Below, piece after piece: positions 3,017 through 12,373 of a DNA stretch of 12,373 nt (within the stretch, counting starts at the first letter, position 1; the number at the start of each line of letters is the position of its first letter). Source of the DNA: Thermoproteota archaeon (GTDB taxonomy: Archaea > Thermoproteota > Bathyarchaeia > Bathyarchaeales > Bathycorpusculaceae); contig JAAZFA010000345.1 of the NCBI GenBank assembly GCA_012511995.1, positions 1-12,373 on the forward strand, given 5' to 3'. The notes below the pieces were generated by a model that made no database searches, was not told the DNA's origin, and saw only the letters and a program-made list of their open reading frames with translations. The position numbers were made by a program, and so were the translations under genes.

Positions 3017-4699
3017 TTGCTTAGTAAAGTCTGGTATTCACTCAATGGTTTATCCTCTAAAAAACCCTTAAAGTACATTCTCTACATTTCTGCAGTGATA
3101 ATTTTTTTTGCATTAATATTGATTCCTCCAATTATTGGGATTTTATCAAAAGTTGACTCCTTGGATGCAGTTCTAAATGACCCAATAATGGTGGATGCTG
3201 TTCTTGGAGCTATTGGCGCTTCCTTTGCAATAGGTTTAGTAGTAGCCGCTTTGGACCTTTTAGCCGGTGTACCACTGGCATGGTTGATTACACGAGGAAA
3301 ATCTAAATGGTTAACAGTATTAGACACGTTAGCAGACCTTCCCTTCGTTGTTCCGACTGCTGCTTTAGGTTACTCTCTCTTGCTGTTCTGGAGTTTGAGT
3401 CCTGCGGAATTATTCGGTCAACCTTTTGTTTCACCCGGATGGGGACTAGTGATGCTTCTTCATTTCACGTTCTCCTTCCCAGTGGTCGTACGTGTTATCG
3501 TAGGTGCTTTACTAGATTACAAAATGGAGTACGAACGGGCATCTAGGACCCTTGGTGCACCCCCATTGACGGCTTCAAGAACTGTTACGTTTCCAATTAT
3601 AAAGCCATCGTTAATCGCGGCATACACTCTTGCTTTTGCTCGTTCACTTTCTGAAACGGGTGCTACCTTTATAGTAGCTGCAGGTCTCTTTTTAAATGGA
3701 CCTGTTTTCATTCAAACAGTCAGTAACCAATTCAGTAGTGGGGCTATTTCACAAAATACCTATGAAGGTGCAATTGTATTCGCAAGTCTCATCCTAATTG
3801 TAGTTTCTTTAATTCTATTCATTTTGATCCGTGTCCTTGGTAAAAAAATTAAACTTCCCTTCGGTCATGGCTTACCAACTTTTGAAAAGAAGCTTAGTTA
3901 TAAAAAAGGCGCTTATGTACGTGATAGTATTGCTTTAGCTGTCTTTTTTGTCATTGTTTTAGTTCCTTCATTATTTGTGGCTTTGCCTGCTTTCCAAGCA
4001 ATAATTACAGGCTCAACTTTTGTTGAGGTATTTACCGGTTCAGGTATATGGGCTAGTTTTTGGAGTAGTCTTGGTCTTTCATACGCTTTAGCAGCTATCG
4101 TTACTGTTTTAGGGATTCTCTTTGGCTTACCGATGGCTATTTTGATTTCACGCAAAACATTTGGTCAATTACCCTCCGCTATTCTTGATACACTGATTAA
4201 TGTACCAATTATTGTCCCCTCAATTGCTCTGGGTGTATCATTAAAATTCTTCTGGTCAAACTTATCTGGTGTTCCAGAATTTTTACTCTTAATATTTGCG
4301 CATTTAGCAATCACATATCCCTATTTCGTTCGGTCGATGTCTGCAGCAATGGAACGTATAAGTATTGAGATGGAGGAGGCTTCAAAAACTTTAGGTGCTA
4401 AACCTCTAACAGTTTTCCGTTCAATAGTTTGGCCGATAACAAAATATTCGATATTATCTGGCGCAATCATTGTTTTTACACGAAGCGTGAGCGAAACAGG
4501 TGCAACATTAGCAGTTGCTTCTAAATTAAAAACAGCTCCAGTTTTGATAGTCGATTGGGTTAATTCAGTCAGAGCAACTATTCCAACTATTCCAGGAGTC
4601 GATACGTTAACTGTTGGTTTAGCTTGTGGCTTGTTAATCCTATTTAGTTTCATTATATTACTTGTTTTAAGGCTTCTAACCAAAAAAGGAAAAGTTTAG
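3017..4699 (+). CDS. ABC importer permease, two fused membrane domains
   Basis: A 560-residue membrane protein made of two homologous halves, each a binding-protein-dependent permease domain with about six membrane segments. Each half carries the EAA loop that docks the ATPase: residues 172-197 (YERASRTLGA ... FPIIKP) and 452-476 (MEEASKTLGA ... WPITKY). Each also has a SETGAT segment after it (212-217 and 492-497). This double-length form is typical of the ThiP/FbpB group, which imports ferric iron, thiamine or similar small solutes; the substrate cannot be decided from sequence alone. TTG 3017 is the start, seven bases after AAGGAG at 3004-3009. The partner ATPase follows 50 bases downstream. 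No substrate-binding protein gene is adjacent. Confidence 0.88.
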   Translation: MLSKVWYSLNGLSSKKPLKYILYISAVIIFFALILIPPIIGILSKVDSLDAVLNDPIMVDAVLGAIGASFAIGLVVAALDLLAGVPLAWLITRGKSKWLTVLDTLADLPFVVPTAALGYSLLLFWSLSPAELFGQPFVSPGWGLVMLLHFTFSFPVVVRVIVGALLDYKMEYERASRTLGAPPLTASRTVTFPIIKPSLIAAYTLAFARSLSETGATFIVAAGLFLNGPVFIQTVSNQFSSGAISQNTYEGAIVFASLILIVVSLILFILIRVLGKKIKLPFGHGLPTFEKKLSYKKGAYVRDSIALAVFFVIVLVPSLFVALPAFQAIITGSTFVEVFTGSGIWASFWSSLGLSYALAAIVTVLGILFGLPMAILISRKTFGQLPSAILDTLINVPIIVPSIALGVSLKFFWSNLSGVPEFLLLIFAHLAITYPYFVRSMSAAMERISIEMEEASKTLGAKPLTVFRSIVWPITKYSILSGAIIVFTRSVSETGATLAVASKLKTAPVLIVDWVNSVRATIPTIPGVDTLTVGLACGLLILFSFIILLVLRLLTKKGKV

Positions 4700-4749
4700 A
4701 ATGATAAGCAATAAGAATAACAAAACCTCAACAAGTGGAGAGAATTAGA

Positions 4750-5856
4750 ATGCCAGACGTAAGAGTGGTAAACGTCGTCAAAAAATATGGTAAAGTTTAC
4801 GCGTTAAATAACGTTAGCTTGAACATACATGATCAAGAATACTTTTCGCTTCTGGGACCAAGTGGCTGTGGAAAAACTACTCTTTTGCGTCTGATAGCTG
4901 GTTTGATCGATCCAGATGGCGGCGAAATTTATATTGGTGATTGTCGCGTCGACAAAGCCCCTCCCGAGGACCGAGATATTGGTTTTGTTTTCCAGACATT
5001 CGCATTATTCCCTCATATGACTGCTTGGAGTAATGTGTTGTATGGTCCAAAAGTCAAAAATTATGATACAAAACAAGCTGAAACCATAGGGCATGAAGTA
5101 CTAGAGTTGGTTAAACTAAGCGAACGACTAAATGCTTACCCAAATGAACTTAGTGGGGGGATGATGCAACGAATTGCTGTGGCTCGTGCGTTGGCAGCAG
5201 GAGCAAAAACGTTACTTCTCGATGAACCTTTGGGACAGCTTGATGCTAAAGTACGTAATGATATTCGTTATGAAATCCGAAGAATGGCAAAAGATCTTAA
5301 GCTTACTGCAATTCATGTAACTCACGATCAAGCCGAAGCCATGTCAATTTCTGACCGGATCGCTGTAATGAAGAAAGGAAAAATAATACAGGTCGGAACC
5401 CCAAAAGAGCTTTACATGCATCCTAATAGCATTTTTGTCGCCTTTTTCATTGGCGAATCCAACCTGTTGGAAGGACATATTACAAAAAGTGATGATAAAA
5501 TCGCTGAAATGGAGTTACGTGAAGGATATACTATTGAAGCTTTTAATCAAAAAAAATTAAAAATGGGTGACCGTGCTGTCTTAGCGATAAGGCCAGAAAC
5601 TTGTGCAATGAGACAGGGTCTTATTAATGAAAATCGGAATGGATTATTTGGTGTTGTTGAAAAAACAACTTTTGAGGGTACAATCGTACGTTATGACATT
5701 AGGCTAGTTAATGGTGATCGCTTTTTAATTAATCGACCATCATTAACCGAAGAATGGGTAAGTATTGGTCAAGAGGTTACTATCACTTATCCTCTTGAGA
5801 AGGCACATCTGTTTCCATATCCAGAAAATGGATTAAACGACGAAATATCTGTATAA
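4750..5856 (+). CDS. ABC transporter ATP-binding protein (Fbp/Pot/ThiQ type)
   Basis: A 368-residue ATPase that powers the adjacent fused permease. All motifs are intact: Walker A GPSGCGKTT (36-44), Q-loop Gln82, signature LSGGM (134-138), Walker B LLLDEP (155-160), D-loop LGQLD (161-165) and switch His192. The C-terminal part (about 240-368) is the TOBE-like regulatory region of the CUT1/MOI-type importer ATPases, including an AIRPE segment at 279-283. ATG 4750 is preferred over the in-frame GTG 4735, because that GTG is part of the GTGGAGAG ribosome site lying about eight bases before the ATG. The gene probably shares a transcript with the permease. Substrate is unknown; ferric iron, thiamine and polyamines are the usual choices for this arrangement. 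Confidence 0.9.
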   Translation: MPDVRVVNVVKKYGKVYALNNVSLNIHDQEYFSLLGPSGCGKTTLLRLIAGLIDPDGGEIYIGDCRVDKAPPEDRDIGFVFQTFALFPHMTAWSNVLYGPKVKNYDTKQAETIGHEVLELVKLSERLNAYPNELSGGMMQRIAVARALAAGAKTLLLDEPLGQLDAKVRNDIRYEIRRMAKDLKLTAIHVTHDQAEAMSISDRIAVMKKGKIIQVGTPKELYMHPNSIFVAFFIGESNLLEGHITKSDDKIAEMELREGYTIEAFNQKKLKMGDRAVLAIRPETCAMRQGLINENRNGLFGVVEKTTFEGTIVRYDIRLVNGDRFLINRPSLTEEWVSIGQEVTITYPLEKAHLFPYPENGLNDEISV

Positions 5857-5923: not shown

Positions 5924-5958
5924 GCTCTTAAAATTTAAAAGCAAGTATAACGCTTTTA
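5924..5958 (+). promoter_or_regulatory. Promoter and operator-like palindromes of the hydrogenase/complex I operon
   Basis: TTAAAATTTAAAA (5928-5940) is a likely TATA box. It lies inside a 19-base near-palindrome, GCTCTTAAAATTTAAAAGC (5924-5942), with eight of nine pairs matching. Its right arm is reused in a second repeat, TAAAAGC (5936-5942) with GCTTTTA (5952-5958). Transcription would start near 5960, leaving a leader of about 35 bases with TAGGAGAG at 5981-5988. A TATA box is naturally AT-symmetric, so only the GC-containing ends and the second repeat argue for an operator. Confidence 0.42.
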
Positions 5959-5995
5959 GACAAATAACTTGGGGTAGGTATAGGAGAGTAATAGC

Positions 5996-6205
5996 GTGGG
6001 TATGTCTATGCTAGGTTGTTTCCGGAAAAATACTTGTTGTAAACCAGCAGTAAGAATATCAAGTATTATTCTATCCTCTAACATGCATGCAGATACACTT
6101 AAATACGGTTACATAGACGCTCTTGCATATAACAAGTGCAAACTTGCCCCTATACTTGAGGCAGCTTTAACGGAGAAAGTTGCATACGGAGTGATAACTG
6201 CATGA
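5996..6205 (+). CDS. Small Cys-containing protein at the head of the operon
   Basis: An unrecognised 69-residue protein, the first gene of the operon. Cysteines are at 8, 14, 15 and 48, three of them in an N-terminal basic stretch (CFRKNTCCK). The middle and C-terminal parts look mixed helix and strand; there is no clear membrane segment. GTG 5996 is the start: TAGGAGAG (5981-5988) lies seven bases upstream, whereas ATG 6002 is too far from it. The stop overlaps the nuoA start as ATGA (6202-6205), implying coupled translation, which is the best evidence that it is real. It could be an accessory, assembly or regulatory protein, or only a translated leader; sequence gives no function. Confidence 0.6.
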   Translation: MGMSMLGCFRKNTCCKPAVRISSIILSSNMHADTLKYGYIDALAYNKCKLAPILEAALTEKVAYGVITA

Positions 6206-6531
6206 TTATTGATGCCCTCATTGCATTCATCCTTATCTTTGTTTCAACTTATCTGATCTATTTTGTCGGTAAGAAATCGGCGCCAAAACCCGTTATTAGT
6301 GAAAATCAACAAGATGCCTATGCATGTGGAGAAAAAGTATCTTTTCAAGGAATAAAAATCAATGTTTCGCTTTATAAATACCTTATTTACTTCCTAATAT
6401 TTGATTCTTCAGTGCTACTCATAGCTTTTGCATCTTCTACAATTACGTCAATTAATCCTCTCTTATTAATCGTCTATCTTAGCATTATCCTTGCATCAGG
6501 TATAATACTTCTAGAAGGAGGTAAAGATTAA
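6202..6531 (+). CDS. nuoA: Complex I-type membrane subunit A (NuoA/FpoA family)
   Basis: A 109-residue membrane protein of the NuoA/ND3 family, which sits at the joint of the peripheral and membrane arms and helps couple electron transfer to ion translocation. Three membrane helices are visible at about 3-23, 57-77 and 84-104. The loop after helix 1 carries the diagnostic AYACGE (39-44, Cys42). Helix 2 has LIFDSS (65-70): the family's conserved Asp is present (Asp68), but the Glu of the usual FDxE is Ser70. The start overlaps the preceding gene (ATGA) and the end overlaps nuoB (TAATG). A NuoA-family subunit in an operon whose catalytic subunits look like hydrogenase is unusual. Confidence 0.85.
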   Translation: MIIDALIAFILIFVSTYLIYFVGKKSAPKPVISENQQDAYACGEKVSFQGIKINVSLYKYLIYFLIFDSSVLLIAFASSTITSINPLLLIVYLSIILASGIILLEGGKD

Positions 6532-7052
6532 TGGCTGACGCAAAGACATGGGCGCGTGTTAAGTCACCTTGGGTTTTACACTTTAATTCCGGAGCATGTA
6601 ACGGTTGTGACATAGAAATTGTTGCATTATTAACGCCAAAGTATGACGTTGAACGTTTTGGAATTAAACTTGAACCCTCACCCAGACATGCGGATATACT
6701 GCTAGTTACGGGCGCTGTTACCAATCAATGTGCTGAGCGGCTAAAGCGCGTTTATGATCAGATGCCCCAGCCAAAATTTGTGGTTGCTATCGGTGCTTGT
6801 GCTTGTAGCGGCGGTGTTTTTGCAGGAACCTATAACACCCTTGGTGGCGTTGACAAAGTCATTCCTGTTTCAGCTTATATCCCTGGTTGTCCTCCCCGGC
6901 CAGAAGCAATAATCGACGGGTGCGTCAAACTATTAAACGCAATTAATCCACCTAAAAAGAAAAAGCGTAAACAAGTTAATGGAATAAAAGAGGCGACTAA
7001 ATCTGAAGTAGTCCCTGTAGTAATGGAGGTAAAACAAGATGGCAAGCAATAA
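6531..7052 (+). CDS. nuoB: Small Fe-S subunit, NuoB / group 4 [NiFe]-hydrogenase type
   Basis: A 173-residue subunit that would hold the proximal [4Fe-4S] cluster passing electrons to or from the catalytic site. Likely ligands are Cys23, Cys26, Cys90 and Cys120, in ACNGCDIE (22-29), GACACSGG (89-95 region) and IPGCPPRPE (117-125). The CNGC spacing is that of group 4 energy-converting hydrogenases such as HycG, EchC and MbhJ; true complex I NuoB has two adjacent Cys here. From about residue 140 there is a Lys-rich segment (PPKKKKRKQ) and a variable tail beyond the family core. The start is ATG 6531, sharing one base with the nuoA stop, with AGAAGGAGG upstream. The gene ends 14 bases inside the large-subunit gene. 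Confidence 0.9.
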   Translation: MADAKTWARVKSPWVLHFNSGACNGCDIEIVALLTPKYDVERFGIKLEPSPRHADILLVTGAVTNQCAERLKRVYDQMPQPKFVVAIGACACSGGVFAGTYNTLGGVDKVIPVSAYIPGCPPRPEAIIDGCVKLLNAINPPKKKKRKQVNGIKEATKSEVVPVVMEVKQDGKQ

Positions 7053-8616
7053 TGCAGATATGGTATCCTTACTTGAATCGAAATTCGGCGACAAGATCCA
7101 AATTCAAAAAGATGTGCTTGGTACAGCCGCTATTATAGCAAATAATGGTATTCATTATGATGTTTTTAAAGCTATGATTGAAGCCGATGAAAAAACAGGC
7201 ATAACAGCTATCACTGGTTTGGATTTTGGCGCTAATTTGGGTGTATACTACCACGTTCATACAACTAACCAATTTTTTACGATTAAAGCAGTAGTTCCTA
7301 CAGTGGATCCAAAAATTAAAACGATCGTGGACATTCATCCCGGTGCCCTTTTTCATGAGCTTGAAGTAACTGACCTCTTTGGTATAGTATTTCAAGGGAA
7401 TGAATTTGATGGTCACTTCGTACTTTCAGAAAATTGGCCTGATGGTGTCTACCCATTACGTAAGAATGTTGATCCTACAAAAGTTAAACTTGTACCAACA
7501 CCCGAACGTGAATTTAACAAACCTGCAGAGGGTAGAGAAGTTAAGATTATTATCGGTCCACAGCATCCAGCACTTTTGGAACCTGAAAAGTTTTCTGTAA
7601 CAGTAGATGGTGAAACTGTAACAAAAGTAGAACCCAGAATCGGTTATGTTCATCGTGGTATCGAAAAAACAACCGAGTCCCGCACGTATTTACAAGATAC
7701 CTATTTGGTTGAACGTGTTTGTGGCATTTGTAACGCTTGTCATTCCTATGGTTTTGTAGAAACTGTAGAAAGAATCTTCAATGCTGATGTTCCTGAAAGA
7801 GCTCAGTATCTGCGAGTAATATCTTTAGAACTTAATCGTTTACACAGTCATTTGTTAACTTTAGGTCACGCTTGTTTAGAAATTGGTTATGAGACTCTCT
7901 TTCAATACTTCTGGAGAGACCGCGAACCAATCATGGACCTTGTTGAATTAACCACAGGCAACCGCGTTTACGGTTCCTTGATGACTATTGGAGGGGTACG
8001 TAGAGACTTAAACCCTGAGCATGTACCCAAAATTAAGGCTGTCCTAAATGACTTTAAAACTGAAAAAATGCCTTTTTTCAGAAAAATGTACCAAGATGAA
8101 CCTACCCTTAGATTAAGGATGAAAGATGTTGGAACACTAAGTCGAGAAGATGCGTTAAAACTCTCTGTCGTGGGCCCTGTTGCGAGGGGGTCAAACGTTG
8201 ATATGGATATAAGAAAAATCCAACCTTATGCGGCGTATGGCGAAATACCCTTCAATCAGATTGTATACACTGATGGCGATACTTGGGCAAGAATGAATGT
8301 ACGCTTAGATGAGGTTGAAGAAAGCATTAACATTATTGATTATGTAATAGATCATCTTCCATCCGGACCAATAAAGATTGATTTACCGCGAAGTGTGCCC
8401 GAAGGGGAAGCAATAGCCTGTATTGAGGCACCCAGAGGCGAACTCTTCTATTATGTGAAAAGCAATGGTACAGACATGCCTGATCGGGTTAAAATCCGTA
8501 CGCCTACATTTGCTAATATTCCGTCATTTCTAAAGACTGCCATTGGTGAGAGCATAGCTGATGTCCCATCAAATTTTGTCAGCTTAGACCCCTGCTTCTC
8601 ATGTACAGACAGGTGA
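7039..8616 (+). CDS. nuoCD: Fused C-D subunit with intact [NiFe] site (hydrogenase large subunit)
   Basis: The 525-residue product joins a NuoC-like 30-kDa domain (about 1-145, with HELEVTDLFGI at 106-116) to a NuoD/hydrogenase large-subunit domain (about 165-525), as in HycE. The second domain has IGPQHPALLEPE (172-183), GYVHRGIEK (202-210), the L1 motif ERVCGICNACH (225-235) and the L2 motif DPCFSCTDR (517-525). Cys228, Cys231, Cys519 and Cys522 are thus the four ligands of a NiFe centre; complex I subunits lack them. The protein ends directly after L2, so there is no C-terminal peptide for a maturation protease to remove. It is expected to make or use H2 with ferredoxin as partner. ATG 7039 follows GGAGGT at 7025-7030 by eight bases and overlaps nuoB. 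Confidence 0.92.
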   Translation: MASNNADMVSLLESKFGDKIQIQKDVLGTAAIIANNGIHYDVFKAMIEADEKTGITAITGLDFGANLGVYYHVHTTNQFFTIKAVVPTVDPKIKTIVDIHPGALFHELEVTDLFGIVFQGNEFDGHFVLSENWPDGVYPLRKNVDPTKVKLVPTPEREFNKPAEGREVKIIIGPQHPALLEPEKFSVTVDGETVTKVEPRIGYVHRGIEKTTESRTYLQDTYLVERVCGICNACHSYGFVETVERIFNADVPERAQYLRVISLELNRLHSHLLTLGHACLEIGYETLFQYFWRDREPIMDLVELTTGNRVYGSLMTIGGVRRDLNPEHVPKIKAVLNDFKTEKMPFFRKMYQDEPTLRLRMKDVGTLSREDALKLSVVGPVARGSNVDMDIRKIQPYAAYGEIPFNQIVYTDGDTWARMNVRLDEVEESINIIDYVIDHLPSGPIKIDLPRSVPEGEAIACIEAPRGELFYYVKSNGTDMPDRVKIRTPTFANIPSFLKTAIGESIADVPSNFVSLDPCFSCTDR

Positions 8617-8629
8617 TAGGTGAAAAGTC

Positions 8630-9634
8630 ATGAGTTTCATACTTGATCCTGTGCTAATCTTTAGAATACTCGTCTTTCCAGGGTTCACATTCATCTTCTT
8701 TTTAACCTTATTCTGTGATTGGGTAGAACGTAAACTTGAAGCACGTATACAAAATCGAGTTGGTCCCATGGTTGCAGGACCTGGTGGTATTCTTCAGCCA
8801 CTGGCAGACTTCATCAAACTCTTATCAAAAGAAGATATTGAACCACGAGATGCGAAAAAACTGGTTTTCAGGATTGCTCCAATTGCCGCTTTTAGCATCA
8901 TGGTTTTTGCTATGTGTTTTATACCGATTGACGGCGCCAGTGTCCTTTCAACTGGTGGATTTAATGGTGACTTAATTATTATTTTGGTTTTTTCAACGGT
9001 TGCTAACTTTTTATTATTCCTGGCTGGTTGGGCATCAGCTAATCCGTATGGCACAATTGGTGCAGCTAGAGTTTTAACGCAATTCTTAGGTTACGATATA
9101 CCGTTTCTCTTATTAGCTTTAACACCTGCATTTTTAGCTGGAAGTTTGAGTATTTTTCAAATTGCAGGATCTGCATGGCCAGCTATTCTACTTGCTCCGT
9201 GGGCATTTGTACTATTTATAATCACATTACAAGCAGAACTTGAAAGAGACCCATTCGATGTACCTCATTCTGACTCAGAAGTTGTTGGCGGCTTAGAAAC
9301 TGAATACACAGGCGCCAAATTAGCCTTCTTACATTTGACACGTGACATCCAAGTGGTCTTTGGTTCAGCACTGGTTGTAACGTTGTTCTTAGGAGGTCCA
9401 AGTGGTCCGGTGTTCTTTGGTTTAGATTGGTTCTGGTACACCTTATGGTTTGTACTTAAACTACTCGTCGTTATAGTTATATCCGAATACATTACTACAG
9501 TAGTAGCCCGATTACGAATTGACCAAGTGTTAACAGGCAATTGGAAAATACTGCTCCCTGCAGCGATAATAAGTTTGATAGTAGCAGTCGCATTGGTAAC
9601 TTGGGTCTATCATCCACTAGGGATTGGAGTGTAA
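8630..9634 (+). CDS. nuoH: Complex I-type membrane subunit H (NuoH family)
   Basis: A 334-residue membrane protein with about eight helices that anchors the catalytic module to the membrane arm. Family marks are WVERKLEARIQNRVGP (31-46), LQPLADFIKLLSKED (55-69), the loop ERDPFDVPHSDSEVVGG (205-221) with LETEYTGAKLAF after it, and VARLRIDQVL (292-301). In that loop the first Glu of the usual PFDxPEAESE is His213, and the second is Asp215; Glu217 is kept. Such changes may follow from loss of a quinone site, since hydrogenases have none, but this is inference. ATG 8630 follows AGGTGA by six to seven bases, 13 bases after the large-subunit stop. Confidence 0.92.
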   Translation: MSFILDPVLIFRILVFPGFTFIFFLTLFCDWVERKLEARIQNRVGPMVAGPGGILQPLADFIKLLSKEDIEPRDAKKLVFRIAPIAAFSIMVFAMCFIPIDGASVLSTGGFNGDLIIILVFSTVANFLLFLAGWASANPYGTIGAARVLTQFLGYDIPFLLLALTPAFLAGSLSIFQIAGSAWPAILLAPWAFVLFIITLQAELERDPFDVPHSDSEVVGGLETEYTGAKLAFLHLTRDIQVVFGSALVVTLFLGGPSGPVFFGLDWFWYTLWFVLKLLVVIVISEYITTVVARLRIDQVLTGNWKILLPAAIISLIVAVALVTWVYHPLGIGV

Positions 9635-9641
9635 AAACTAG

Positions 9642-10094
9642 ATGGTTAAAAAGAAAAAATCGAGATCACGGATATCACCGATATTTAAGCGAGCGGTTTC
9701 ACACTTGTTCACCAAGCCTGCTACTACCAAATATCCATTTGTGAAACCGACACTTCCGGCTGATTCCCGAGGCAAACTAGTCTATGAGATCAAAGCATGT
9801 AATGTTATAGACTTTGATTGCGGCGATGACTTTCGATTTGACATTGAAGCTATGCGGGGGTCCAATTGTCGAGTATGCGCACGTGACTGTCCAGCACAAG
9901 CCATTGAAATCGTTAAAGTAAATGGTAGAAAGCGTCCGCAAATTGACCTCAATAAGTGTGTATTTTGTTATCAATGTGTTGAATCTTGTCCTCGTGATGC
10001 TATTAAACAGTCTGATCTTTTCGAATTAGCGACTACTGATAAATCAGAACTTATTATGAGACCAGAATATTCAAAGAAGGGTGGATCAGAATGA
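9642..10094 (+). CDS. nuoI: Ferredoxin-like Fe-S subunit I (NuoI family), one Cys missing
   Basis: A 150-residue ferredoxin-type subunit that would carry electrons between soluble ferredoxin and the B subunit. The second cluster motif is complete, CVFCYQCVESCP (Cys106, 109, 112, 116). The first reads GSNCRVCARDCP: Cys76, Cys79 and Cys83 are present, but the position of the first Cys is Gly73. Extra Cys at 53 and 60 might substitute. The N terminus is strongly basic (KKKKSRSR), and the region 40-70 is an insert-like acidic stretch compared with typical NuoI. ATG 9642 is seven bases after nuoH; GGAGTG at 9626-9631 is somewhat distant. The stop overlaps the nuoJ start as ATGA. Confidence 0.88.
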   Translation: MVKKKKSRSRISPIFKRAVSHLFTKPATTKYPFVKPTLPADSRGKLVYEIKACNVIDFDCGDDFRFDIEAMRGSNCRVCARDCPAQAIEIVKVNGRKRPQIDLNKCVFCYQCVESCPRDAIKQSDLFELATTDKSELIMRPEYSKKGGSE

Positions 10095-10546
10095 TAATTG
10101 AAATCTTAGCTATTGGATTAATTATCTCCGCAGTATTGGCCCTATTTCTTGATGAAGTAGTTTATTCTGTTGCTGCTTTAGCAGCTACTTTTCTATTAAC
10201 TGCATTAATTTATGTTTTAAATGGAGCTGTTTTTGCTGGTATCTTCCAATTTGCTGTTAGTATAGGCACATTGGCTATTTTATTTCTATCAGGGGAGATG
10301 TTGGGTGAAAAACCAAGCAAAAAGGCTTCCTCCTTACGAATCGGTGGCTTAGTAGGTGTAGGTTTTCTGTTATCTTTGCCAGCGATTTTCTTATCAGTTT
10401 CTGGAGTCTCGCATGTTGCACCTGATGTAGAATTCGGCGATGCACTGTGGAATCTTAGAGGTGTTGACGTATTACTTCAAGCTATTGTAATTTTGACCGT
10501 GGCTATTGGTATTAGTATTGTTCTCTTTGAGCGGAGGAAGAAATAA
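10091..10546 (+). CDS. nuoJ: Complex I-type membrane subunit J (NuoJ family)
   Basis: A 151-residue membrane protein with about five helices, matching NuoJ/ND6. The conserved core is YSVAALAATFLLTALIYVL (25-43) followed by NGAVFAGIFQFAVSIGTLAI (44-63). In complex I the second part reads VYxGAI around a pi-bulge that takes part in coupling; here the Tyr is Ser57, while Gly59 is kept. There is a polar loop at 72-83 and a Lys/Arg-rich end. It is a single NuoJ-like subunit, as in Nuo and Fpo, not the split MbhD/MbhE pair of Mrp-type hydrogenases. The start overlaps nuoI by ATGA and the end overlaps nuoK by TAATG. Confidence 0.82.
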   Translation: MIIEILAIGLIISAVLALFLDEVVYSVAALAATFLLTALIYVLNGAVFAGIFQFAVSIGTLAILFLSGEMLGEKPSKKASSLRIGGLVGVGFLLSLPAIFLSVSGVSHVAPDVEFGDALWNLRGVDVLLQAIVILTVAIGISIVLFERRKK

Positions 10547-10866
10547 TGGATTATGTTATACTATCCATTGTATTGCTCTTCATTGGCATCTATGGTTTGC
10601 TTACAAAGCGTCAGTTACTTAAGGTGTTTATTTCGATTGAATTGATCGCTACAGCCGCTACTTTGAATTTTATTATGTTGGCTTCGCCGCAAGGCATGGG
10701 TGAAGCATTACTGGTTTTAGCGTTCTCAGTTGACACTGCTATTAGTGCTGTAATCTTGGCGTTGCTCGTTATAGTATCAAAACACTATGGTACAAGTGAC
10801 ATTACAAAGATAGTTGCTAAACTAAAAGAAAACGAAGTTGAAGAAAGCGAGGTTGAAACACAATGA
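10546..10866 (+). CDS. nuoK: Complex I-type membrane subunit K (NuoK family)
   Basis: A 106-residue protein with three membrane helices at about 3-20, 27-47 and 54-78, matching NuoK/ND4L, which carries acidic residues of an ion path. Glu32 in FISIELIATAATLNFI (28-43) matches the first conserved Glu (Glu36 in E. coli). The second (Glu72 in E. coli) is replaced by Asp63 in FSVDTAISAV (60-69). The C terminus (about 91-106) is an acidic tail, KENEVEESEVE, beyond the usual end. The start shares a base with the nuoJ stop (TAATG) after GGAGG at 10533-10537, and the stop overlaps the nuoL start as ATGA. Confidence 0.88.
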   Translation: MDYVILSIVLLFIGIYGLLTKRQLLKVFISIELIATAATLNFIMLASPQGMGEALLVLAFSVDTAISAVILALLVIVSKHYGTSDITKIVAKLKENEVEESEVETQ

Positions 10867-12373
10867 TGCTTGAAGAGTTCTCTGCATGGTTTGTCTGGGT
10901 TATTCCACTAATTGCAAGCTTATTTGTTCCATTAATTGGAAAATATAGTGAAAAAGCACGAAACTATTTTGTTATTGCTATAATGGGTGTAATTACAGCA
11001 TTAGCACTCACCCTTATTCCAGGTGTATGGTTTGGAAAAGGCGAAACAACTTACTATACCCTTGATTGGCTCCCTAATATAAACGGTGGTTCAGCAGGCA
11101 TAACCGCAGGTGTTTACATCGATCCATTGAGTGTACTATTCACCTGTCTTGTTGCCTTCTTTGGTGTAATCATCGCAGTTTATTCACTGGGTTATATGAA
11201 AGGAGAAGAAGGCTTAACCCGCTATTACTACTTACTATTACTCTTCATAGGTTCCATGATTGGTTTAGTAATCTCAGATAACCTTCTTCAAATGTTCATA
11301 TTTTGGGAAATGGTCGGATTATGTTCTTATGCTCTTATTAGTTTCTGGTATAAAAAACCAGAATCCATTCATTCCGGTGTAAAAGTTTTCATGATGACCC
11401 GCATCGGAGATATCGCATTACTCGCTGCTATCGGTATAATGTTCTTTATGTTTGGAACTTTTAGTTTTCATGGTATAATTACTGGTATTGAGACTGCAGC
11501 GGCAGCTCAAACACTCGATACTGGCATGCTTACTATTGCTGCATTTCTAGTATTAGGTGGTGCTATTTCAAAATCTGCACAATTCCCTCTTTTTACCTGG
11601 TTATATAGCGCGATGGAAGCACCAACTTCTGTTTCCGCATTACTTCATGCAGCTACAATGGTAAAAGCGGGTATATTTTTACTTGCGAGATTTATTGTAA
11701 TCTTTTCAGTAGCTCCAATCCTTATGAATGCACTACAAGTCGCTTGGTTCCCAACTATTGCATGGGTTGGCGTAATAACTGCTTTCATCGGTGCATCACT
11801 AGGCTTGATGACTACTGACATCAAAGGGGTGCTCGCATATTCTACCGTAAGCCAGATTGGGTTCATGATGGCAGGCTTAGGTACAGCGGTTGCTGGCGCA
11901 GCATCAATCGGTTGGTTCGCAAGCCTTTTTCACATGGTTAGCCATGCCTTCTTTGAAGGCCTGGGTTTCCTATTAGCAGGTGGTATCATCCATGCGGTAG
12001 GTACCAGAGACATGCGTTTAATGGGTGGTCTACGAAAAGCAATGCCTATAACCTTCGTATTGATGGGCATCATGGTTGTAACTACAAGTGGTTTACCACC
12101 ATTTGCAGCTTTCTTTAGCAAAGGGCTCATCTTAGAAAGCGTAGCTGTAATCGGTAGCACCGCAGGTCTTATTCAAACTGTACTACTCTATGTAACAGCG
12201 GCGATTACTTTTGCGTATTGCATTCGTATGTTTAGCTTAGTGTTTATGGGGAAAAAATCATTATTTCTTGAAAAACTACACATTCACGAGTCTCCAAGAA
12301 TAATGCTTATTCCTGCAGCAATCTTGGCTGTTTTTTGCATTATTTGGGGTCTCTCAGAACCTCTCTTAACAAC
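10863..12373 (+). CDS. nuoL: Complex I-type antiporter-like subunit L (NuoL family), cut by window end
   Basis: The frame runs from ATG 10863 to the window edge with no stop: 503 codons of a family usually over 600 residues. This is the distal antiporter-like ion-pumping subunit. Recognisable marks are MFIFWEMVGLCSYALISFW with Glu149 (E. coli Glu144), MTRIGDI, KSAQFPLFTW with Lys237 (E. coli Lys229), the SALLHAATMVKAGIFLLAR segment with Lys268, SHAFFEGLGFLLAG (360-373) and LPPFAAFFSKG with Lys420 (E. coli Lys399). In the fourth of these segments the usual HAFFK Lys (E. coli Lys342) is Glu365. ATG 10863 overlaps the nuoK stop as ATGA; ATG 10866 is an equally possible start. The missing C terminus would include the long lateral helix. 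M and N subunits would be expected next, but are not in the window. Confidence 0.9.
   Translation, partial: MMLEEFSAWFVWVIPLIASLFVPLIGKYSEKARNYFVIAIMGVITALALTLIPGVWFGKGETTYYTLDWLPNINGGSAGITAGVYIDPLSVLFTCLVAFFGVIIAVYSLGYMKGEEGLTRYYYLLLLFIGSMIGLVISDNLLQMFIFWEMVGLCSYALISFWYKKPESIHSGVKVFMMTRIGDIALLAAIGIMFFMFGTFSFHGIITGIETAAAAQTLDTGMLTIAAFLVLGGAISKSAQFPLFTWLYSAMEAPTSVSALLHAATMVKAGIFLLARFIVIFSVAPILMNALQVAWFPTIAWVGVITAFIGASLGLMTTDIKGVLAYSTVSQIGFMMAGLGTAVAGAASIGWFASLFHMVSHAFFEGLGFLLAGGIIHAVGTRDMRLMGGLRKAMPITFVLMGIMVVTTSGLPPFAAFFSKGLILESVAVIGSTAGLIQTVLLYVTAAITFAYCIRMFSLVFMGKKSLFLEKLHIHESPRIMLIPAAILAVFCIIWGLSEPLLT

Follow-up and report, generated by a model that had tools for sequence, protein, structure and literature searches.

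Loh, Herve and Brune (2021; PMC7886697) described in Bathyarchaeia subgroup 6 (Bathy-6) an energy-converting [NiFe] hydrogenase, Hfo, that has 11 subunits in the gene order of Fpo, carries both of the NiFe-binding motifs L1 and L2, lacks FpoFO and NuoEFG, and falls into subgroup 4g of HydDB. In their account, Methanomethylicus has a near-identical organization, and Hfo is proposed to link complex I to the energy-converting hydrogenases more closely than does Mbh, the group 4d enzyme of Pyrococcus furiosus, whose Na+ module Hfo does not have. Here, we examined a contig of 12,373 nucleotides (JAAZFA010000345.1, our C162; its whole length is hereafter called the window) from a genome of 2.2 Mb in 499 contigs that is 85% complete. 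Eight reading frames, overlapping or closely spaced on one strand, run from position 6202 to the end of the window, and we conclude with high confidence that they belong to a cluster encoding Hfo, a group 4 [NiFe] hydrogenase of the energy-converting, Fpo-like kind with 11 subunits (subgroup 4g by the HydDB assignment of Loh et al.).

This identification follows from the NiFe cysteines, from best matches to HycE, MbhL, and MbhJ, from the presence of a HypD maturase gene in the genome, from the lack of an input module beside the cluster, and from an architecture, motifs, and genus that are those of the published Hfo. Like that enzyme, ours has 11 subunits in complex I order, L1 and L2, and neither FpoFO nor NuoEFG in its cluster; it differs in its fused C and D and in a large subunit that lacks the C-terminal peptide. 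Although the cluster is real and well preserved, this kind of enzyme was already described in 2021 from the same genus. An earlier note, made from the letters of this DNA, had suggested that the operon may be an energy-converting hydrogenase of a distinct kind whose membrane arm is the full one of complex I; this was right, and that hydrogenase is Hfo.

The catalytic subunits are of the hydrogenase type

The B subunit (6531..7052, on the forward strand like the other seven frames; 173 amino acids; PF01058, Oxidored_q6, 121 bits) is of the small hydrogenase subunit type that holds the proximal cluster, and it carries CNGC at residues 23 to 26. Subunits C and D form a single fused [NiFe] large subunit, CD (7039..8616; 525 amino acids; PF00329, Complex1_30kDa; PF00346, Complex1_49kDa; PF00374, NiFeSe_Hases), with the L1 motif CGICNACH at residues 228 to 235 and the L2 motif DPCFSCTDR as its C-terminal end. 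The four NiFe ligands, Cys228, Cys231, Cys519, and Cys522, are invariant in an alignment of 11 homologues, and both these ligands and the CNGC motif are as the earlier note had read them.

We considered whether the NiFe cysteines could be an assembly error and ruled this out because relatives keep them: both motifs are present in loci L012 to L034 and L036 to L040, which were retrieved without a motif filter (L035 is truncated). The cluster as a whole is not due to chance, and hardly to misassembly, since 24 of the 32 genus genomes searched, its own included, have a CD match of at least 63% identity (two, in G023 and G029, are fragments), and eight are without one. Among solved structures, B matched MbhJ best (182 bits), followed by HycG (139 bits) and complex I-type chains (137 bits), while CD matched HycE (287 bits) and MbhL (273 bits) ahead of complex I subunits (242 bits or less), which places B nearest to, and D near, their Mbh counterparts.

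The subunit set is that of complex I, with no input module beside it

The remaining frames complete the order A-B-CD-H-I-J-K-L, that of complex I and Fpo, and each of the eight matches its expected Pfam family, as had been anticipated from the translations. First comes a NuoA/FpoA-like A subunit (6202..6531; 109 amino acids; PF00507, Oxidored_q4, 25.8 bits against a cutoff of 23.3), whose position is conserved, at 43 to 72% identity, in all 12 relatives with long flanking sequence. Downstream of CD lie a NuoH/FpoH-like H subunit (8630..9634; 334 amino acids; PF00146, NADHdh, 283 bits); the I subunit, a 4Fe-4S dicluster protein (9642..10094; 150 amino acids; Fer4, 4Fe-4S, Pfam families) that scores 66.8 bits with the NuoI subfamily model of NCBIfam, below its cutoff of 113; a NuoJ-like J subunit (10091..10546; 151 amino acids; PF00499, Oxidored_q3, 42.9 bits against a cutoff of 33.2); a NuoK-like K subunit (10546..10866; 106 amino acids; PF00420, Oxidored_q2, 54.2 bits) that matches Nqo11/NuoK chains in PDB; and a NuoL-like antiporter subunit, L (10863..12373; PF00361, Proton_antipo_M, 238 bits), which the contig end cuts after 503 readable codons. 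The cluster had been said to begin at 5996, which we ruled out for the subunit set, given that A starts at 6202 and that the open reading frame at 5996-6205 has no Pfam match.

The M and N subunits, which the earlier note had proposed looking for in the next few kilobases, are found outside the window on another contig of the same genome. An antiporter-family search of the genome returned three matches, namely, the window's L and two on contig C461 (G000:C461; 3625 bases), whose minus strand reads 78 codons of an L end, then M (542 amino acids), then N (503 to 509 amino acids, depending on the start). The L end is 69% identical over 78 amino acids to that of L043 and 64% identical to that of L051. 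The order A-B-CD-H-I-J-K-L-M-N, with M and N as two further L-like genes, is uninterrupted on one contig in all 12 long-flank relatives, and a profile search found A-B-CD-H-I-J-K followed by three L-family genes in 36 of the 92 loci examined (28 after the removal of 8 duplicates), many of those that lack the full string being cut by contig ends or belonging to other lineages. The set thus comprises A, B, C, D, H, I, J, K, L, M, and N in Nuo/Fpo order, as in Hfo.

By eye, L and M retain the usual charged channel residues. The N subunit (L044, 244-1749, minus strand) has Glu in place of Lys in what we take to be transmembrane helix 7 (GYAIE) and Asp-Gln in what would then be helix 8. Glu stands at this place in 28 of 42 rows aligned for the N slot, some of them from duplicate loci; eight hold M, three are short, and three are differently arranged. 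We rejected this Glu as a new feature, since the solved chain 6u8y_H carries Glu at the corresponding position.

Subunits for F420 or NADH input, another check that had been proposed, do not stand beside the cluster: there are no FpoFO or NuoEFG genes in the window, nor any 3' of N in the two relatives examined (L042 and L043). A PF04432 search of the 85%-complete genome gave no match to an FrhB/FpoF-type protein. Loh et al. report an FrhB homologue throughout the TB2 members, and its absence here may reflect the incompleteness of the genome. The single NuoF-like match in the genome lies on contig C279 alongside another hydrogenase, which fits the co-occurrence of Hox and Hfo described by Loh et al., each of whose Hox-bearing genomes also has an Hfo cluster.

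Placement of the large subunit and the case for a respiratory dehydrogenase

For comparison, we used the best 80 of 252 relatives (the named loci), retrieved with two search patterns; L1 is present in all 80, partly by construction, since one of the patterns contains CGIC. A first, maximum-likelihood tree was built from 97 D domains after L035, L090, L091, L102, and L106 (truncated), L101 (a second place on one record), and L177 (the same gene as L171) had been dropped; from L012 to L040 it used L012 and L040 only, and from L041 to L056 none. A second tree of 77 rows further omitted the long branches L176, L045, and L173 and 17 rows of the window's clade. The rows taken as complex I were bacterial, haloarchaeal, and from the phylum Thermoproteota, the last so classed for lacking the NiFe motifs, and none was Fpo.

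In the first tree, the window's large subunit groups with those of Bathy-6, in a clade of 43 rows (support, 100/99) in which every row has C and D fused and which includes four genomes from Table 1 of Loh et al. (L060, L062, L073, and L078). The record names in this clade are Bathyarchaeia, except for a Brockarchaeota record (L094), a "Crenarchaeota archaeon" (L058), and a "Nitrososphaerota archaeon" (L063), the last two of which belong to the window's genus (G017 and G028). All 14 motif-less rows that we took as complex I fall into one clade (99/100), outside which lie two other motif-less rows on long branches, L176 and L045 (the C240 protein). In the second tree, 13 complex I rows, which are without NiFe motifs, stand apart from 64 NiFe-type rows (100/100).

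This separation bears on the possibility that the cluster encodes a respiratory, Fpo- or Nuo-like dehydrogenase that has retained the NiFe cysteines and would reduce a lipid carrier with electrons taken from F420H2, NADH, or ferredoxin. Such an enzyme would account for the gene order, and by the NCBIfam models alone, parts of the cluster are complex I-like: the scores of B exceed the cutoffs of the NuoB subfamily models, and that of L exceeds the cutoff of NDH_I_L (416.7 bits against 407.5). Two publications also lean partly in this direction. The authors of the Bathyarchaeum tardum paper (PMC10477458), who find the cluster in that organism, cite Loh et al., and note that NuoJ is lacking, suggest that NuoEFG-like genes elsewhere feed it from NADH; a 2024 paper (PMC11697101) labels a Bathy-6 complex, which we infer to be the same cluster, an Fpo-like F420H2 or Nuo-like NADH dehydrogenase. 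These points count against our assignment to Hfo, as do the statement of Loh et al. that 4g enzymes are without biochemical characterization and the fact that M and N would belong to the cluster by synteny, without a joined contig.

The large subunit itself, however, argues against a respiratory dehydrogenase. CD scores 306 bits with the FpoD model, about half the cutoff of 600, and 305 bits with the NuoD model, against a cutoff of 459, and it has the NiFe motifs that the complex I rows lack. Fpo and complex I share the window's subunit set and order, but they have dedicated F420H2 or NADH input subunits; here, the genome yields no FrhB/FpoF-type match, and its NuoF-like gene is confined to C279. 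In addition, Loh et al. report, in their treatment of Bathy-6, no methanophenazine genes. Taken with the separate complex I clade, these results make a respiratory dehydrogenase very improbable.

The fused large subunit ends at the L2 motif

The large subunit stops at the R of L2 in 33 of the 80 named loci, which, together with the window and L012, make up one clade of 35 rows (100/100). Its sister group of eight rows keeps 25 to 29 residues beyond L2, L107 keeps 29, and all 35 loci with separate C and D keep a C-terminal extension; L090, L091, and L102 are truncated before the L2 motif. The Methanomethylicus locus L133 (A-B-C-D-H-I-J-J-K-L) differs from the window both in its separate C and D and in the 11 residues that follow L2. 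A text search of Loh et al. turned up neither the fusion nor the missing peptide, although their Figure 5 may show the fusion.

Hydrogenase precursors usually bear a C-terminal extension that is cut off by an endopeptidase (PMC7294309). The window's genome has one match to a HycI-type protease, on contig C483, where it adjoins another hydrogenase. Some group 4 enzymes are known to have lost the extension; an Azospirillum row (L178) is likewise without it, the solved MbhL chain ends in CTDR as the window's CD does, and in the aligned complex I subunits the last residue is the one that matches the end of L2. We give roughly even chances to the proposal that, in the window's Bathyarchaeia clade, the maturation peptide has been lost, so that the large subunit ends at L2 and needs no maturation protease for its NiFe site to be filled. 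If this is true, Hfo with fused C and D would represent a derived, protease-free form of an enzyme whose parts were already complex I-like.

NuoA-bearing hydrogenases and the link to complex I

The earlier note had held that a NuoA-family subunit is not usual in group 4 hydrogenases. For this part of the group, that does not hold: an A-type gene lies directly 5' of B in 55 of the 80 named loci (40 of the 45 with fused C-D and 15 of the 35 with separate C and D), and we therefore rejected the idea that NuoA is peculiar to this operon. Hfo itself is largely the kind of described, NuoA-carrying class that the note had named as evidence against its own proposal. The NuoA-bearing records carry the names Bathyarchaeota, Brockarchaeota, Culexarchaeota, Methanomethylicia, Nitrososphaeria, Thermofilaceae, Hadarchaeota, and Hodarchaeota. 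Since A was scored with an iterated profile, loci short of upstream sequence wrongly score as absent, and the 20 unfused loci without A may pool true absences with cut contigs. Among the five fused loci without A, L065 still shows the last part of A where its contig starts, the contig of L092 begins at B, and L090, broken or misassembled, has just 22 residues of B ahead of a CD that is missing its start.

The other two, L079 and L107, are rearranged Hfo-type clusters in which CD and I lie on one strand and H lies on the other, joined there by A in L079 and by B in L107. The genome of L079 also holds a standard cluster (L057), which makes L079 a second copy.

Hydrogenases with the whole membrane arm of complex I bear on the origin of complex I from hydrogenases, which was argued in print in 2021; what we add is a further genome and the occurrence of NuoA-bearing hydrogenases in many archaeal lineages. 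Could the window's enzyme be a direct intermediate in evolution, as the earlier note had suggested, representing the hydrogenase lineage that gave rise to complex I? It shares the 11-subunit set and order with complex I, and Loh et al. propose that Hfo is nearer to complex I than Mbh. The two trees separate the complex I rows from the [NiFe]-type rows, but neither supports Hfo as the sister of complex I. In both, complex I leaves a region shared by Hfo and the Culexarchaeota-, Hadarchaeota-, and Nitrososphaeria-type hydrogenases, and the branching among complex I, Hfo, and the other NuoA-bearing hydrogenases is not resolved by either large-subunit tree. Moreover, the absence of the C-terminal peptide is confined to one subclade, which makes the window's version look derived. 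We therefore consider a direct intermediate unlikely; large-subunit trees alone are insufficient to settle which NuoA-bearing hydrogenase is nearest to complex I.

Proposed reaction

As an Hfo, the complex likely couples ferredoxin-H2 chemistry to ion movement, a function predicted from its sequence. Ferredoxin, the presumed partner, would dock at I, and electrons would pass from the two 4Fe-4S clusters of I to the proximal cluster in B and on to the NiFe site in D, where, if the site is occupied, H2 would be formed or cleaved. Subunits H, J, and K would link this chemistry to ion channels in L, M, and N. Loh et al. favor H2-driven reduction of ferredoxin at the expense of the membrane gradient; the opposite direction, in which H2 is formed from ferredoxin and the membrane is charged, could equally apply.

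Occurrence in the genus

Four genomes of the window's genus that carry the gene are listed in Table 1 of Loh et al.: "Ca. Bathycorpusculum acetigenerans" Emb289P1_bin127 (G004, WQVG01000063.1), "Ca. B. hydrogenotrophicum" Lab288P3_bin169 (G015, WRCX01000046.1), "Ca. B. fermentans" Nc150P4_bin1 (G010, WRGM01000171.1), and "Ca. Bathycorpusculum sp." Nt197P4bin22 (G001, WRJX01000098.1). The archaeon from which the window comes is therefore a member of this genus and of Bathyarchaeia subgroup 6. Genes for the permease and ATPase described below adjoin the Hfo cluster in 4 of the 12 long-flank relatives (L041, L043, L051, and L053), a synteny that indicates that the contig belongs to this lineage.

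Neighboring genes and a second complex

Just 5' of A, the frame at 5996-6205 has 69 codons and finds counterparts at 31 to 50% identity in 12 of the 60 loci searched (10 after duplicate removal); gaps in the alignment upstream of A are mostly multiples of three, and the frame is perhaps a small gene or an operon leader peptide. It is preceded by a TTTAAA box (5934) and by the stretch CTTGGGG (5968), the latter reading CTCGGGG in most aligned relatives, and these elements (5934-5974) are a possible promoter and leader. Farther upstream, 3017-5856 encodes an ABC permease fusion and an ATPase; the models listed for it include those of tungstate, molybdate, sulfate, phosphonate, and polyamine transporters, every listed one below its cutoff. 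The product of 1344-2000 had no match in a Pfam scan at an E value of 0.01 and resembles the CdvB1/B2-like ESCRT-III cell division proteins (141.6 bits, under the model cutoff of 350).

The same genome holds a second hydrogenase-like complex (L045; G000:C240, 1-1849), whose large subunit lacks both L1 and L2 and ends in NLSYAGTDL. Its small subunit, by eye, is also without the cluster cysteines, which would make a redox role doubtful. In relatives (L184 and L185), this complex is preceded by L-like genes and by what reads by eye as an H-like gene. Matches to it occur in 7 of the 32 genus genomes at 29 to 32% identity, with cysteine loss examined in three, and the complex is similar to the Ehr complexes, which are described as being without Ni-Fe ligands (PMC6349859).

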